A stretch of DNA of 22,141 bases from positions 1 through 22,141 of IMG/VR virus record IMGVR_UViG_3300008012_000230; one strand, 5' to 3'. Source of the stretch: a virus. Under the pieces are notes generated by a model. It searched no databases, had not been told where the DNA came from, and saw only the letters and a list, made by a program, of their open reading frames with translations. Shown in pieces: positions 3,677 through 9,683 of the stretch. Within the stretch, counting starts at the first letter, position 1, and each line of letters starts with the position of its first letter. The position numbers and the translations under genes were made by a program.

Positions 3677-4399
3677 ATGCCTTTACCCAAGATTTCGACA
3701 CCGACATATGAGTTGGAATTGCCTTCAAATGGAAAATTAATTAAATATCGTCCATTTCTTGTAAAAGAAGAAAAAATTCTTATCATGGCACTGGAGAGTG
3801 AAGATCTTAAACAAATTTCAAATGCAATTAAAACTGTTATATCAGATTGTATTATTACAAGAGGAATTAAAGTAGATCAGTTATCAACTTTTGATATTGA
3901 ATATTTGTTTTTAAATGTTCGTGCAAAATCCGTAGGAGAATCTGTAGAAGTAAGTGTAACATGTCCAGATGATGGAGAAACACAATTACAAGTTGAAATT
4001 GATATTGATTTAATTAAGGTTCAAAAGAATCCTAATCATAGTAATATTATTAAATTGGATGATAATCTTTCGGTTAAAATGAAATATCCATCTTTAAATC
4101 AATTTGTTGAAAGTAATTTTGAAGTTGATAATAAAAATGAACAAGTTGATAAGTCTATTCAAGTGATAGCATCTTGCATTGGTCAAGTATTTACTGATGA
4201 AGAATCTTGGGATGCTTCTGATTGTAGTAAGAAAGAATTGAATGATTTCATCGAGCAAATGAATACCAAACAATTTAAGAAAATTGAAGAATTCTTTAAC
4301 ACGATGCCAAAATTATCACATACAATTAATGTGAAGAATCCAAAGACAGGTGTGGAGTCAGAAGTTGTATTGGAAGGGTTAGCAAGTTTTTTCAGTTAG
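3677..4399 (+). CDS. 26: Baseplate hub protein gp26 (tail-assembly-chaperone-like)
   Basis: The 240-residue protein starts PKISTPTYELELPSNGK and continues KYRPFLVKEEKILIMALES, the signature of the T4 gp26/T4 baseplate protein family (T4 gp26 is 208 residues). A second half rich in acidic and Lys residues follows, with CPDDGE (about residues 96-101) inside a Cys-containing beta region. In T4, gp26 is needed for hub assembly around the tape measure. Its last codons are GCA AGT TTT TTC AGT TAG. The stretch T TTT TTC (4387-4393) is a canonical -1 slippery heptamer two codons before the stop, so a second 301-residue gp26-gp51 product is likely (see next entries). No strong ribosome-binding site precedes the ATG; an AATAAATA motif lies 26 bases upstream. 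Confidence 0.88.
   Translation: MPLPKISTPTYELELPSNGKLIKYRPFLVKEEKILIMALESEDLKQISNAIKTVISDCIITRGIKVDQLSTFDIEYLFLNVRAKSVGESVEVSVTCPDDGETQLQVEIDIDLIKVQKNPNHSNIIKLDDNLSVKMKYPSLNQFVESNFEVDNKNEQVDKSIQVIASCIGQVFTDEESWDASDCSKKELNDFIEQMNTKQFKKIEEFFNTMPKLSHTINVKNPKTGVESEVVLEGLASFFS
4387..4393 (+). promoter_or_regulatory. Programmed -1 frameshift site (T TTT TTC)
   Basis: The heptamer TTTTTTC is placed in the gp26 frame as T TTT TTC, which fits X XXY YYZ exactly. After a -1 slip both tRNA-Phe re-pair on TTT TTT and reading continues CAG TTA GCG into the gp51 frame. The gp26 zero-frame stop follows immediately (AGT TAG). A perfect 8-base palindrome CTCATGAG lies at 4406-4413, 12 bases downstream, but it is a weak stimulator; I see no strong pseudoknot by eye. 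Confidence 0.68.
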
Positions 4400-4581
4400 C
4401 GCTGGCTCATGAGAGTTTGGAAAATTATTACAAAACAAACTTTGCCTTGATTCAGCACCATAAATATTCATTGACGGAACTAGAAAATATGATACCTTGG
4501 GAAAGAGAAATATATGTTTCTCTTTTGCAACAATATATTGAGGAAGAAAATTTAAAACAGCAAAAACAGAGTGGTATTTAG
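4393..4581 (+). CDS. 51: gp51 hub assembly catalyst, expressed as -1 extension of gp26
   Basis: The frame -1 to gp26 encodes 62 residues after the slip site (QLALAHESLENYYKTNFALI, then HHKYSLTELENMIPWEREIY and a Glu/Gln-rich end). The -1 frame was closed by TAA 4327-4329. Between 4330 and 4416 it contains no ATG, GTG or TTG, and the first ATG (4489) would leave only 30 residues. The open frame therefore has no sensible start of its own, yet it is well formed and looks like the 'LxxLExMxxWExE' C-terminal part of tail-assembly chaperones. Position between gp26 and the tape measure matches gp51 of T4-like cyanophages. Expected product: a 301-residue gp26-gp51 fusion made in minor amounts. Its TAG overlaps the next gene by 11 bases. 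Confidence 0.72.
   Translation, partial: QLALAHESLENYYKTNFALIQHHKYSLTELENMIPWEREIYVSLLQQYIEEENLKQQKQSGI
4459..4466 (+). promoter_or_regulatory. Possible internal late promoter (CATAAATA)
   Basis: CATAAATA fits NATAAATA exactly and lies inside the gp51 frame, 104 bases before the GTG start of the tape-measure-like gene. The long leader and location inside a coding region make chance occurrence likely. Listed because the same octamer occurs at 9679-9686 just before another gene. Confidence 0.25.
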
Positions 4582-6340
4582 TAGTCAAAGTTTTACGGCA
4601 CCTACTTTAGATAAAAAACCAAAGTTGGGGAAGAAAATGATTTCTTCTTCAGTTTTTCGTGGTGCCTTTAAATCTATTGGAAAATCGACTACTATCAAAA
4701 TTCCTAAAGGAATGCAAATAGGGGCAAGTAAGTCTTATGTTGATCCAAGTTATTTAAGAAAAGAAGAAAGCACGCCAATTGAACAAACATTAGTAGAAAC
4801 AAACAATATTCTTATAGAAATACAAAATCAGTTAGCAACTGATTTTGCTTATAGGATTGCAAAAGAGAAAGAAGATATACAAAAAATAAAAATTACATCT
4901 GATAAGGAAAAAAAGAGTAGGGCAGAAGCAGGTGTAGAAAGTGTAAAAAAAATTGGTGGTTTTGTTAAAAATCAAGTTGATAAAGTTACTACTCCTGTAA
5001 AAGGATTTTTTCAAAAAATACTTGACTTTTTTGGTGCCATTATTACTGGATTTGTAGTTAATAAGGCGATTGATTGGTTAACAAAACCAGGTAATGCTGA
5101 AAAAATAGCGGGGATATTTACTTTTATTGGGAAACATTGGAAACCAATTCTTGCTGTTATTGGCGGTTTTCTTTTAACTAATGTTGTATTAAAAATTTAT
5201 CGATTATATAAACTTATCCGTGGAGCACTGAGACTTATTGGTATTGGTAGACGTGGTGCTGGTGCTGGTGCTGGTGATGCTATAAGGAGAGGTGGTTTAA
5301 TTAGAAATGCTGCCGGTGGTAGAAGAGGTGTTAATGTTGAGATGGAAAGAATTACCAGAGCAAAACCTGGTTCTGGTGGACTACTTCATGAGAGAGTAGA
5401 TGTATATAAGAGAACTAAAAATCCAGTAGCAAAGGCAGTTCAAAAAGCAGAAGTATTATCAAAGTTAGCTGGTAAAAAGGTAGTAAAAGCACTTGGTGCA
5501 AAAGGTCTCATGAAATTTTTGAGACCAGTATTTAAAAGAGTACCTGTATTTGGAGCACTAATTGATTTTGCCGTGTCTCTTGCTCTTGGAGAGCCAATAG
5601 GTAGGGCAGCAGCAAAGTCGGTTGGTATGTTGCTTGGTAGTGCTTTAGGAACATTAATTCCAATTCCTGGTGTTGGAACATTTGCTGGGGGTTTACTTGG
5701 TGACTTTGTTGGTGGTAAAATTTACGATGCAATTGTTGGAGAAAAACAGGAAGATCCTTTAAAAATGAATAGAGGTGGTATTGTTCCTGGACCCAATATT
5801 AATAAGGACATTGTGCCAATACTTGCTACTCCTGGAGAGGCTGTTGTCCCTAAAAAAGAAACAGCAAGATTTTCGGGATTTTTATCTGATATTATTAGTA
5901 ATGGTGGAGAATTATTTGAGAAAATGTTTCTCTCATTGAGAAAACAAGAATATAATAATAATATATTTAAAGAAGCGAATGAAAAATTTGAAGAATCTAT
6001 AGAAGTGCTTTCCAAGTACTTTAAAAAAGAAACATTAAAAGCGCTTGATCCCAACTTATATAATAAATTATATGGTGCCATTGGAGGACCACGAGATTCA
6101 ATGGCAAATAAATCTTTGAATCCTGTGAAGAAAAATACTTCAAACATGTCAATGAGATCTATGAATAGGTCTCCATCGATTACAATGTTGCCTCCGATAA
6201 GTGCTGCCACTAATTTATCTGCTTCTAAAGTAAATTCAACACCCTCTGGTGGAGATTCGATAATTGCACTTGATGCAGAGGATAATGATAATTTTTATGT
6301 TTCATACTACACTGCATCTTCTCTTGGATTGGGAGTGTAA
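4571..6340 (+). CDS. Tape-measure-like hub protein (gp29-type)
   Basis: The 589-residue length is close to T4 gp29 (590), which sets tail length and lies in the hub. In order: basic N-terminus; a likely coiled coil (about 70-115, EQTLVETNNILIEIQNQL and a Lys/Glu run); a hydrophobic amphipathic region (about 141-205) with PVKGFFQKILDFFGAIITGF; Arg/Gly/Ala-rich linkers (about 226-260); a small-residue glycine-rich hydrophobic stretch near 325-390; then RGGIVPGPN at 401-409 followed by VPILATPGEAVVPKKE. The GGIVPG...TPGEAVVP motif is typical of tail tape measures. The gene lies directly behind gp26/gp51, the usual chaperone-then-tape-measure order. The start is GTG 4571, overlapping gp51; an in-frame ATG at 4637 behind GGGGAAG (567 residues) is an alternative. 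Confidence 0.75.
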   Translation: MVFSSQSFTAPTLDKKPKLGKKMISSSVFRGAFKSIGKSTTIKIPKGMQIGASKSYVDPSYLRKEESTPIEQTLVETNNILIEIQNQLATDFAYRIAKEKEDIQKIKITSDKEKKSRAEAGVESVKKIGGFVKNQVDKVTTPVKGFFQKILDFFGAIITGFVVNKAIDWLTKPGNAEKIAGIFTFIGKHWKPILAVIGGFLLTNVVLKIYRLYKLIRGALRLIGIGRRGAGAGAGDAIRRGGLIRNAAGGRRGVNVEMERITRAKPGSGGLLHERVDVYKRTKNPVAKAVQKAEVLSKLAGKKVVKALGAKGLMKFLRPVFKRVPVFGALIDFAVSLALGEPIGRAAAKSVGMLLGSALGTLIPIPGVGTFAGGLLGDFVGGKIYDAIVGEKQEDPLKMNRGGIVPGPNINKDIVPILATPGEAVVPKKETARFSGFLSDIISNGGELFEKMFLSLRKQEYNNNIFKEANEKFEESIEVLSKYFKKETLKALDPNLYNKLYGAIGGPRDSMANKSLNPVKKNTSNMSMRSMNRSPSITMLPPISAATNLSASKVNSTPSGGDSIIALDAEDNDNFYVSYYTASSLGLGV

Positions 6341-6343
6341 TAA

Positions 6344-7855
6344 ATGGAAAGCGTCGAGAATTTAAAACTTAATGTTAGTAATATAAAAAGTGTATTGACT
6401 ACATCAAATAAAAATTTGAAACAGTTACAAATTAAAAAGACAAGTATATTAAGGAAACAAATACAAGGCGAAAAAAGATTTGAAAGAGAGAAAAAAATAG
6501 AGACCCCTAGAATTCCTGGATCCGAACTTGCCAAAGGAATTGTAAGAAAAATTGCAAGTCCTGTTATGGGAGTATTTGATAGAATAATGGGATTTTTCAG
6601 TGCTATATTACTTGGATTTGTAGTTAATAATTTGCCAAAAATAATTGCAGAGTTGACTCCTATTTTTGAAACTATGAAACCAATATATGAAGGTTTTATG
6701 AAAGGATTGGGATTTGTGATAAATGGAATAGGATTTTTGTATAATTCTGTTGCGCCATTATTTTTTAATGAAAATGAAGCACGAAATAATATTAAAACTG
6801 CAGAAGATACACTCAAATTAATTGATAAGGATTTAGATGAAGGTTTTGAATTGTCAAAAGATAATGATAATACTGAATCTGAGACAACTCAAACTCAAGA
6901 AGTAAATAATTATACGGATCCTTCTACGCCTGTCATTCAACAACAAACTCAAGTAAAACCGGAAATACAAAAAAGAAATACTGGTGGTTTAGTAAACAAA
7001 AGACAAAATGCGAATCTTCCACCAAGAAGAAATAATTATGAAAATGCAAAAACAAATCCTTTAAGGTTATTTGGAAAGGTAACAGAGCAAAACAGCGAAA
7101 ATGTAAATCTATTTGAAAAAAATAATGATAAATTAGAAGAAATTGCAAAATTATTAAAATCATCAGAAAGGAAAAAATCTATTACTACTAATGATAATAA
7201 ACCGGCAACTGATAATAAAGTTGTAATTAGTGATGGTAAAATTACCGGACAAATTGTTGGAAGAGTTGGGCATAGTGGGTATACGATCCCAGAAGGTCCA
7301 GAGGGTTCTCACATTCACATTGAAACTGGAAGGGGGGAAGGAGGAGCGGGAGGAGAGATTCCTTCATCAGTTTTGAGTAATATTATTGTTGGTGGTAAAC
7401 CATTGTCTGATTGGCCTCAAACTTCAACAATTGGTGATGGTAGAGGGCACCGTGGATTGGATTATGGTATTCCGAAGGGGACACCAATTACTCTTAAAGG
7501 GGGATTGAAACTTGTTGATTATGATACGGTTAGAGATCCAAGTGGATATGGAAATAATATAGTTATTGTGGATAAATATGGAAATTATTATTTAATTGCT
7601 CACTTATCCAGTGGACCAGAGAAATCTAAAGATGGTGAAGGTGGGCAGTTAAATAATAGTATAACATCTAGACAAATAATTCCTTTAAGTGACGAAATTA
7701 AGAAACAAATTATTATAGTTCCTGTAGAAAAGTTAGTGCCTATTGAAACTCCAGTTCCAGTTACTGGCAATTCTACAAAGGTCTATAGACCTGGTGGAGG
7801 AAAAGATTATGGTGGACGACCTTTAAATCCCTGGCAAACGAGAGGACCTCAATAA
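6344..7855 (+). CDS. Tape-measure-related protein with a permuted M23 peptidase signature
   Basis: This 503-residue tail protein starts 3 bases after the previous stop with a GGGAG ribosome-binding site. Residues 1-50 are helical and basic. Residues 68-95 (PVMGVFDRIMGFFSAILLGF core) are clearly related to residues 137-163 of the upstream tape-measure protein. NTGGLVN at 212-218 recalls the tape-measure GGxVPG motif, and Asn/Gln-rich linkers surround it. From about 305 the sequence reads as an M23 metallopeptidase in two blocks with swapped order: GRVGHSGY...GSHIHIETG (H323, H325), then GHRGLDYGIPKGTP (H369, D373), then GYGNNIVIV...YYLIAHLSS (H420). All zinc and catalytic histidines of M23 are present, so peptidoglycan cleavage during entry is a reasonable inference. 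The C-terminus is Pro/Gly-rich and extended. The stop overlaps the next ATG by one base. Confidence 0.75.
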   Translation: MESVENLKLNVSNIKSVLTTSNKNLKQLQIKKTSILRKQIQGEKRFEREKKIETPRIPGSELAKGIVRKIASPVMGVFDRIMGFFSAILLGFVVNNLPKIIAELTPIFETMKPIYEGFMKGLGFVINGIGFLYNSVAPLFFNENEARNNIKTAEDTLKLIDKDLDEGFELSKDNDNTESETTQTQEVNNYTDPSTPVIQQQTQVKPEIQKRNTGGLVNKRQNANLPPRRNNYENAKTNPLRLFGKVTEQNSENVNLFEKNNDKLEEIAKLLKSSERKKSITTNDNKPATDNKVVISDGKITGQIVGRVGHSGYTIPEGPEGSHIHIETGRGEGGAGGEIPSSVLSNIIVGGKPLSDWPQTSTIGDGRGHRGLDYGIPKGTPITLKGGLKLVDYDTVRDPSGYGNNIVIVDKYGNYYLIAHLSSGPEKSKDGEGGQLNNSITSRQIIPLSDEIKKQIIIVPVEKLVPIETPVPVTGNSTKVYRPGGGKDYGGRPLNPWQTRGPQ

Positions 7856-9171
7856 TGAATGCAGCACAAGCAAGTATATTTGAAGAATTTATAATTACAT
7901 CTGATGACGGAAGTAATTCTGTAAATCTTTATGATGGTCAGATAAGAATTATTAGTTTTGATTACTTTGAATCTATATTATCACCGTGCATTACTGGCAC
8001 AATTATAATTTCTAGTGGATCTGATGCTGCTGTATCGAGGGAAGATCCCCAAAATAGAGTAGGAAGTATATTATCGCATTTACCTCTTCGTGCAGGATCA
8101 ATAATATCGACAAAAATACGCACAAAAAATGGAGTATTGAATTTTTCTGGAGATGATTATAAAGTTTTATATGTGACAAAGGTTGTTCCTCTAATCCAAG
8201 ATTCTAATTCAGAAACAATATCTATAAAGTTTACATCTAAAATTGGATGGTTAAATGAAACTACCAGAATTACACGATCATTTAATGGAAAAATTACCAA
8301 ATCTGTAGAATCTATATTAACAAAAGAATTGGGTATAAAATCTAATAAAATTTTTATTGAAGAAGCAATCAATAGTCTCACATTTACTGGAATGAGAAAG
8401 AGACCATTTGATTTATTAATAGGACTTTTATTAAAACAATCTATACCCCCCAATACAGTAAATCCTGGTTATTTTTGTTATGAAACAAAGAGTGGATTTA
8501 ATTATGTTTCTATTGATACTTTGATAAATCGAGAGGAATTTAAAATTCCTTATGAATATAATGGCAAAAATATATCATCTTTTGAAACTAAAGATGACAG
8601 TGCTGATTTTAAGGTAGCAACATTTTCGACAGAAAAAGATCAAGATTTGTTGATGCAAATTAGATCTGGAATGTATGCTACAAAAAATTTATTTTTCAAT
8701 CCACTAACTTTTAAATTTACCGAAATTGACATATCTGTGATAACAAATTCAAAGTTTTCTTCATTGGGTAAAAAACAAAAACTTCCAAGAATTTTAGATC
8801 AAGATTTCAATGAGGGGAAAAAATATCATCGAGTTCAGTCTGCTATCCTAGATATAGGAAGTAATACAGAAGAAAAAACTCAAAATAATAATCCAGAACT
8901 TTACTATGCAGCAGGAACTACTAGATATAATGCATTATTTTCTCAAATTCATAATGTAACAATTCCATCAAATATTTTACTTGAAGCTGGAGATTCGATT
9001 ATTTTAAATATTGAAAGTATATCTAATGATAAGGTGCAAGGTGTTGATCAAGTTAAAAGTGGTAAATATATAATTAGGGGAATAAGGCATCATTTTACTC
9101 CTAAAGTATCTACTACTGGATTAAAACTTATTCGCGATTCTTATGGATTACATTTTAGTAAGAGCAAATAA
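7855..9171 (+). CDS. 27: Baseplate central hub gp27-like protein
   Basis: The 438-residue protein compares with T4 gp27 (391), the trimeric hub ring that carries gp5 and docks the tail tube. Its N-terminal domain begins FEEFIITSDDG...VNLYDGQIRIISFDYFESI and includes a tube-like beta region ending FTSKIGWLNETTRI. The centre has the helical segment RPFDLLIGLLLKQSIPP followed by NPGYFCYETKSGFNYVSIDTL, typical of gp27-type hub proteins (read peptide, then 'sid' strand). The C-terminus, about 370-430, returns to beta structure (ILLEAGDSIIL...SGKYIIRGIRHHF), as in gpD/VgrG-type hubs. ATG overlaps the preceding TAA (TAATG), with AGAGGA 8 bases upstream, so translation is coupled. The next gene, its expected partner gp5, begins in the same overlapping way. 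Confidence 0.8.
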   Translation: MNAAQASIFEEFIITSDDGSNSVNLYDGQIRIISFDYFESILSPCITGTIIISSGSDAAVSREDPQNRVGSILSHLPLRAGSIISTKIRTKNGVLNFSGDDYKVLYVTKVVPLIQDSNSETISIKFTSKIGWLNETTRITRSFNGKITKSVESILTKELGIKSNKIFIEEAINSLTFTGMRKRPFDLLIGLLLKQSIPPNTVNPGYFCYETKSGFNYVSIDTLINREEFKIPYEYNGKNISSFETKDDSADFKVATFSTEKDQDLLMQIRSGMYATKNLFFNPLTFKFTEIDISVITNSKFSSLGKKQKLPRILDQDFNEGKKYHRVQSAILDIGSNTEEKTQNNNPELYYAAGTTRYNALFSQIHNVTIPSNILLEAGDSIILNIESISNDKVQGVDQVKSGKYIIRGIRHHFTPKVSTTGLKLIRDSYGLHFSKSK

Positions 9172-9683
9172 TGGAAGGACTAAATTCGGCACAATTTAAT
9201 TTTTATGGTTTGGGGACAAATGAGTGGATAGGTATGATATTGCCCTTTGAATCCCAAAAAGATCAATCTACGGGAAAGAAAGGATTTGGTTTTCGTTATC
9301 GAGTGGCTATTATGGGTTATCATCCACTTGATAATAGTATAACTGATGAAGAAATTACTTATGCCATAACTGGATTCTCACCTGCTGATGGCGGCGGCGG
9401 TGGATCGTGTTATAAAACATCTAAATTGACTCAAGGAGATGTTGTTTTGGGTAAATTTTTAGATGGTGATAATAAACAATTGCCAATTATATTGCATGTT
9501 TTATGTAGAACGTCTGATATACAATATGGATATGGATCTGGTAGATTTGATCCAAAAACTGGATTTGTTGGAAGTAGAAAAAAGACATCATTAACAAAAA
9601 ATCAAGAAACATGTGAACAAAAAGGAATATGCACGCCAAGACTAATACCTGGGAATGGGAAACAAGGTAGAACATCTCCATAA
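9171..9683 (+). CDS. 5: gp5-like baseplate hub OB-fold protein without lysozyme
   Basis: The 170 residues look like only the N-terminal OB domain of gp5 (T4 gp5 is 575, with OB fold, lysozyme and beta-helix). Evidence: NEWIGMILPFE near residue 17, GFRYRVAIMGYHP (40-52), a poly-Gly turn at 74-78, and QGDVVLGKFLDGDNKQLPII (88-107). The last is the typical 'V.V.FLDGD...PII' strand pair of gp5/VgrG OB folds. The C-terminus is Lys/Gly/Cys-rich and extended (CEQKGICTPR). No lysozyme motif or beta-helix repeats follow. A separate spike-like gene occurs 1.5 kb downstream (11194-11724). TAATG overlap with the gp27-like gene suggests stoichiometric coupled translation, as expected for a gp27-gp5 complex. 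Confidence 0.75.
   Translation: MEGLNSAQFNFYGLGTNEWIGMILPFESQKDQSTGKKGFGFRYRVAIMGYHPLDNSITDEEITYAITGFSPADGGGGGSCYKTSKLTQGDVVLGKFLDGDNKQLPIILHVLCRTSDIQYGYGSGRFDPKTGFVGSRKKTSLTKNQETCEQKGICTPRLIPGNGKQGRTSP

Follow-up and report, generated by a model that had tools for sequence, protein, structure and literature searches.

A putative programmed -1 ribosomal frameshift joining gp26 and gp51 in the tail assembly chaperone locus of T4-like phages

Organization of the gp26-gp51 locus

The window, i.e. the whole stretch of 22,141 nucleotides of viral DNA that was analysed (IMG/VR record IMGVR_UViG_3300008012_000230), carries the following features in the region of gp26:

3677..4399, + strand: gp26, putative short tail assembly chaperone (TAC-N, lambda G-like), from the ORF, PF12322, phrog_150 and the predicted model
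4372..4378, + strand: GGAAGGG, Shine-Dalgarno-like stretch, proposed stimulator, 8 bases upstream of the heptamer
4387..4393, + strand: candidate slippery heptamer T_TTT_TTC, in phase for a -1 slip
4393..4581, + strand: -1 frame extension "gp51" (putative T domain, 62 aa plus stop), to be read after the slip, from the open frame, phrog_634 and the junction alignment
4571..6340, + strand: next gene, candidate tape measure of 589 aa overlapping the gp51 end, from a weak family match

The gp26 ORF runs from the ATG at nt 3677 to the TAG at nt 4397–4399 and codes for a protein of 240 aa, matching PF12322 (T4_baseplate, the gp26/gp51 family) with an E value of 6e-76 (255.4 bits, above the gathering cut-off of 24.5) and phrog_150 with an E value of 2.5e-81. 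Its terminal codons read AGT TTT TTC AGT TAG, with a single sense codon (AGT) between the heptamer and the stop; an earlier note on this DNA had correctly placed the in-frame T TTT TTC at nt 4387–4393, the "two codons before" the stop mentioned there including the stop itself. The gp51 frame lies -1 relative to gp26 and is open from nt 4330 to nt 4581. No ATG, GTG or TTG occurs in it from nt 4330 to nt 4416, either in the window or in the identical locus L001, the first permitted start being a TTG at nt 4417 (+20 with respect to the gp26 stop codon) and the first ATG lying at nt 4489. ORF reading was therefore in agreement with the earlier note as regards the register, the startless stretch and the position of the first ATG, and translation gave the same 62-residue addition, for a predicted slip product of 239 + 62 = 301 residues. 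The -1 frame shows homology with phrog_634, "baseplate hub assembly catalyst" (E 2.6e-32), and also with positions 228–278 of phrog_150, indicating that the latter family already includes proteins with both parts joined. A search against NCBIfam returned nothing useful.

The structural comparison with chaperone folds suggested by the earlier note was performed with an AlphaFold2 model of gp26 (mean pLDDT 87.1), and bore it out for the N-terminal part. Eleven out of 997 PDB chains aligned with VIA-align 2 had a Z of 2 or more, the best being 3fgx (Z 8.2, rmsd 4.2, 86 aligned), followed by HK97 gp13 (2ob9; Z 8.0, rmsd 3.8, 84 aligned) and YqbN (3klu; Z 7.2, rmsd 4.2, 86 aligned), and then by 5ir0 (5.3), 6vek (4.2) and matches from 2.0 downwards. 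A Z near 8 is middling according to the tool's own note and alone is no proof; that three chaperones head the list over residues 1–96 makes the chaperone-like fold persuasive. All three top matches are termed tail assembly chaperones in the relevant part of PMC9603447. With Foldseek, 2ob9 ranked only 16th (E 1.6), yet with the highest probability (0.57) among the 50 matches listed, while a PDB sequence search with the gp26 profile gave no match. The N-terminal part of the gp26 model, at approximately residues 1–96, thus resembles HK97 gp13 in its predicted fold, as well as YqbN and 3fgx (Z 7.2–8.2), although identity with these proteins is 5–10% and gp26 has at least about double their length.

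The 589-aa ORF following gp51 has a weak match to the tape measure family phrog_934 (E 0.0012), and families labelled endolysin or unknown match it better. In 232 of the 262 heptamer-bearing loci gp51 is followed by a long open frame, and tape-measure family matches were obtained for the following ORFs of MED4-213 (E 8.4e-13) and D486 (E 1.1e-6). When the ORFs lying downstream of gp51 in Vibrio, Aeromonas, Pseudomonas and Stenotrophomonas phages were compared by profile with those of the window relatives, no match was obtained, and neither was one obtained with T4 gp29, so that identification of the next gene as a tape measure by homology to T4 gp29 was abandoned. Two further genes of the window were observed downstream. 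The first (nt 6344–7855), after the 589-aa ORF, codes for a protein of 503 aa whose end region shows a weak match to M23 peptidase (E 0.00013, under the Pfam cut-off) and which may belong to a split tape measure or a tail lysin. The second (nt 9171–9683) codes for a 170-aa protein matching only positions 16–147 of the 932 of phrog_1922, that is the N-terminal part of this hub/tail lysozyme family, and by this match is a putative short gp5-like protein without the lysozyme part.

Conservation of the slip site and start codons of the gp51 frame

Relatives were collected on the basis of their similarity to the window, S-PM2, Melnitz, PX29 and T4 gp51, cyanophage-like lineages weighing most, and 265 of the 277 loci collected were counted, in 164 clusters at 90% identity. 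The motif T_TTT_TTN is kept in 161/164 clusters, a figure from which T4-type loci, which do not have this arrangement, largely fall outside, since the 12 excluded loci are T4 (L081), Aes012 (L096), nine T4-type gp51 loci without a + strand gp26 match at the cut-off (L103–L108, L110–L112) and L215, whose contig ends first. The last base of the heptamer is C in 131 clusters, T in 14, A in 13 and G in 3. By comparison, elsewhere in the same genes just 17 of 519 F[FL] dipeptides are encoded by T_TTT_TTN. The three clusters without the heptamer are Vibrio K413, the gp26 of the T4-like phage ECp13 and one T4-type gp51. The length of the -1 extension, measured in 158 clusters (three having no heptamer and three being cut by the contig end), ranges from 56 to 69 aa.

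Among the first 80 IMG/VR relatives, five of them 100% identical to the window gp26, TTTTTTC is found at the same place in all 80. In the 69 close relatives differing by more than 5%, third-base entropy is zero at all three slip codons, the third base being invariant even at the first one, where Ser is encoded in only 88% of the sequences; on the contrary, third-base variation is seen in the nine other conserved Phe columns, and the TTT:TTC ratio over the rest of the genes is 510:166. Across relatives the second slip codon alternates between Phe and Leu with the T run unchanged. The heptamer is also present in Aeromonas PX29, Stenotrophomonas BUCT608, Sinorhizobium phiM9 and phiM19, Pseudomonas pf16, Rhizobium IC12, and Vibrio D486 and phi-Grn1, whose gp26 is 22–36% identical to that of the window, and both it and the -1 register persist down to identities of only 22–28%. 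The isolates S-PM2 and MED4-213 share this arrangement. The slip site is therefore not a freely varying one, and the conservation that the earlier note proposed to examine was found both for the heptamer and for the register.

This distribution bears on two explanations other than ribosomal slipping. That an ordinary in-frame fusion gene was disrupted by a sequencing or assembly error, for which nothing but the shape of the locus speaks, has a practically nil probability, the same arrangement recurring in 161/164 clusters from many assemblies and isolate genomes. A change of frame by RNA polymerase, instead of the ribosome, slipping on the T run is hardly credible: the 14 clusters with TTTTTTT, where longer runs could permit polymerase slip, speak for it, whereas 131/164 clusters carry TTTTTTC, a run which we consider short for polymerase slipping, and the site lies in the phase of ribosomal slip with a Shine-Dalgarno-like stretch upstream.

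The absence of a gp51 start codon, as claimed by the earlier note, stood for the window and, more generally, for the 60/164 clusters in which no start is found up to +14. It did not stand for the 98/164 clusters in which an ATG lies from -1 to +14 relative to the gp26 stop, in 82 of them at +5, even if on average without a Shine-Dalgarno match, so that part of what the earlier note had named as refuting its reading was in fact observed; in 6/164 clusters the near start is GTG or TTG only. In only 1/164 clusters does the -1 frame contain a start codon situated more than 10 bases before the gp26 stop. Based on these counts, the near ATGs count against a slip-only model in the lineages carrying them, where translation of a free gp51 could begin. 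On average the gp51 ATGs are not preceded by a Shine-Dalgarno match (mean -0.04 kcal/mol, n=95), as compared with a mean of -2.97 kcal/mol at gp26 starts (n=158).

Indeed, gp51 might be a separate small protein, translated by coupled re-initiation after the gp26 stop, with the T run merely coding for a conserved Phe-Phe. Besides the near ATGs, the annotation of gp51 as a gene of its own in S-PM2, phiM9 and phiM19 agrees with this explanation, which we nevertheless consider very unlikely: a near ATG is missing in 66/164 clusters, among them the window, the ATGs present have the above-mentioned average pairing energy and, in a group of 77 rows, sit within a hairpin arm, and the third bases of the slip codons are fixed, with the T run staying while the second slip codon changes between Phe and Leu. 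Both products might also coexist, with the fusion made by slipping everywhere and ATG-bearing lineages making, as a third product, the T domain in free form. The co-occurrence of heptamer and near ATG in 95 clusters suits such a combination, which we regard as doubtful given the mean absence of Shine-Dalgarno pairing at the ATGs and given that the fusion may simply tolerate Met or Leu at this position. As a separate observation, in Vibrio phage K413 (L091:2845–3800), the gp26 relative without heptamer, the ATG of the T-like frame overlaps the stop (TAATG), and in this lineage the T domain may have turned into a separate gene without duplication.

Candidate stimulators of the frameshift

Pairing with the anti-Shine-Dalgarno sequence was calculated for the 6–20 bases upstream of the heptamer, obtaining a mean of -6.68 kcal/mol (n=161), as compared with -1.05 for 805 in-phase controls. 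A motif among GGAGG, AGGAG, GAGGG, GGAG, GAGG and AGGA ends 7–11 bases upstream of the heptamer in 126/161 clusters; in their place the window has GGAAGGG, in a 14-base stretch with a duplex energy of -6.0. The conserved Glu codon that builds this upstream stretch is biased towards GAG (GAG:GAA 101:40 versus 1067:2717 elsewhere, p 1.6e-25).

Downstream of the slip site, folding compared with shuffled sequences had a mean z of -2.18 over 60 nt (n=160) and of -2.58 over 40 nt, the mean being -0.48 for a control 60-nt stretch in gp26, and a perfect 9-bp stem was found within 52 nt downstream of the slip in 72/160 sequences as compared with 69/800 control windows. Structure alignments were built on 40 (A2) and 24 (A3) chosen rows. 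In the 77 ATG-bearing rows, which include S-PM2 with a hairpin of its own in another register, an 11-bp stem was defined with 87.2% of cells paired and changes on both sides in 5/11 pairs. The covariation score of these rows was 0.132, as compared with 0.102 after shuffling and at most 0.071 after sliding, although cells changed on both sides numbered 17, below the 23 of a slid control, so that the hairpin covariation has to be taken as supportive and not as proof. Covariation of the hairpin was weak in the ten S-PM2-like rows. No compact hairpin follows the slip in the window (z 0.07 over 60 nt, 0.16 over 40 nt and -1.85 over 80 nt), and a single hairpin common to all lineages was rejected, the registers being different and the window having no compact one.

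The slippery sequence A_AAA_AAG is rated much more shift-prone in E. coli in the pertinent section of Atkins 2016 (PMC5009743). At T_TTT_TTN, the upstream Shine-Dalgarno-like stretch and, in many relatives, the downstream hairpin probably raise the slip rate.

Relationship with T4 gp26 and gp51 and proposed expression strategy

In T4, genes 26 and 51 are divergent. T4 gp26 (208 aa) matches PF12322 across nearly its full length, while T4 gp51 (249 aa) matches it over residues 1–201 (E 3.9e-52) and has a C-terminal part matching phrog_634 (E 1.2e-23). The two proteins align with each other (E 2e-6), and the extension of the window aligns with approximately 50 residues at the C-terminus of T4 gp51 (E 3e-5). 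No gap was observed at the junction when the predicted fusion of L001, the same as that of the window, was aligned with a profile of eight T4-type gp51. Against this profile the fusion scored better than gp26 alone in 157/158 clusters (median 46.8 vs 19.3 bits), and 157 alignments spanned the junction. Since T4 gp51 holds a whole PF12322 domain followed by the T tail, on sequence grounds it is best described as a diverged paralogue of T4 gp26 in which a gp26-like domain is followed by T, and as the probable long form, encoded by a second gene. No chaperones figured in the VIA rows for the model of a T4-type gp51, a result that says nothing on its fold. T4 gene 26 also has an annotated internal in-frame product, 26' (L081:4803–5090), that is the C-terminal part of the same protein.

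The T4-type gp26 (7 rows) and the T4-type gp51 (8 rows) each formed one well-supported group in a tree of 43 chosen proteins, unrooted and with long branches, by which the branching order of T4 gp26, T4 gp51 and the frameshifted genes is not fixed; the two separate groups are consistent with one duplication. The earlier note had taken T4 gp26 and gp51 as the G and T parts of a chaperone system, and this assignment has to be given up, T4 gp51 being a whole gp26-type domain with a T tail. The other half of its overall reading was retained, namely that one gene probably gives a short and a frameshift-extended chaperone.

By a wide margin, the locus is best read as a tail assembly chaperone gene whose long form arises from a programmed -1 frameshift, and this reading is very probably right. 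It is based on the conservation of site and frame, on the predicted chaperone-like fold, on the continuous alignment to T4-type gp51 and on paralogy; from these we infer the slipping itself, its rate, the effect of the stimulators and the division of labour between the products. Most ribosomes would terminate at TAG 4397, producing gp26 of 240 aa, and a minority would pause at T_TTT_TTC and slip one base back, with tRNA-Phe re-pairing on TTT TTT, to add 62 residues and give the 301-residue long form. By analogy with lambda G and GT, coating of the tape measure would fall to the short form and recruitment of the tail-tube protein to the long one. T4 would obtain these products from two genes, gp26 as the short form and gp51 as the in-frame long form, a diverged paralogue. 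We lean slightly towards an ancestral cassette, made of the Shine-Dalgarno-like stretch, T_TTT_TTN and often a hairpin, spread across the T4 superfamily and replaced once, in T4 and near relatives, by duplication and in-frame fusion of T; some frameshifting lineages may in addition start a free T domain.

As in lambda G/G-T, a short form and a -1 frameshifted long form would be encoded ahead of a long gene, here the candidate tape measure. The lambda G/GT slip site differs from T_TTT_TTC, and gp26 is larger, its model having extra strands and helices after the chaperone-like N-terminal part. With T4 gp26 and gp51, the hub assembly chaperones, the locus shares the protein families, T4 gp26 corresponding to the putative short form and gp51 to the long one; the differences are the two divergent genes in place of one slip-site locus and, in the T4-like ECp13, a gp26 end without T_TTT_TTN. 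The roles of lambda G and G-T are described in the sections of Atkins 2016 (PMC5009743) dealing with them, where G-T frameshifting is said to be widely conserved in long-tailed phages "except T4". As portrayed in part of PMC12846349, the chaperone locus of Vandenendeviridae and Andersonviridae likewise has a conserved -1 frame and a T-run motif close to where the short form ends, the motif there being GTTTTT. One short and one longer fusion gene, with no frameshifting, are reported for some T4-like phages in a passage on PRFect (PMC10885494, citing Vladimirov 2022), and the short/long chaperone pair of T4-like phages is credited to Vladimirov, Gautam and Davidson 2022 in the corresponding passages of both PMC12846349 and PMC10885494. 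Judging from these passages, both halves of the idea in the earlier note appear to be already in print for T4-like phages, while no paper on the cyanophage slip site itself was found in the literature searched, most subscription journals lying outside that search.

A gp26 relative is present in 673 deposited phage records. None of the 22 records examined marks a joined coding sequence at gp26-gp51, and in four of them (S-CAM1, S-SSM4, S-PRM1 and S-WAM1; L097, L098, L099 and L102, respectively) the gp51 region is unannotated, tblastn finding the gp51 protein between gp26 and the next gene. The main idea being already published for T4-like phages, what is gained here is breadth, likely stimulators and a corrected annotation. 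Likely roles are thereby offered for the hub "assembly catalyst" gp51 and the "hub subunit" gp26 of T4-like marine phages and, with T4 gp51 as the putative long-form paralogue of gp26, the old puzzle of T4 hub assembly would become a question of tape-measure chaperoning.
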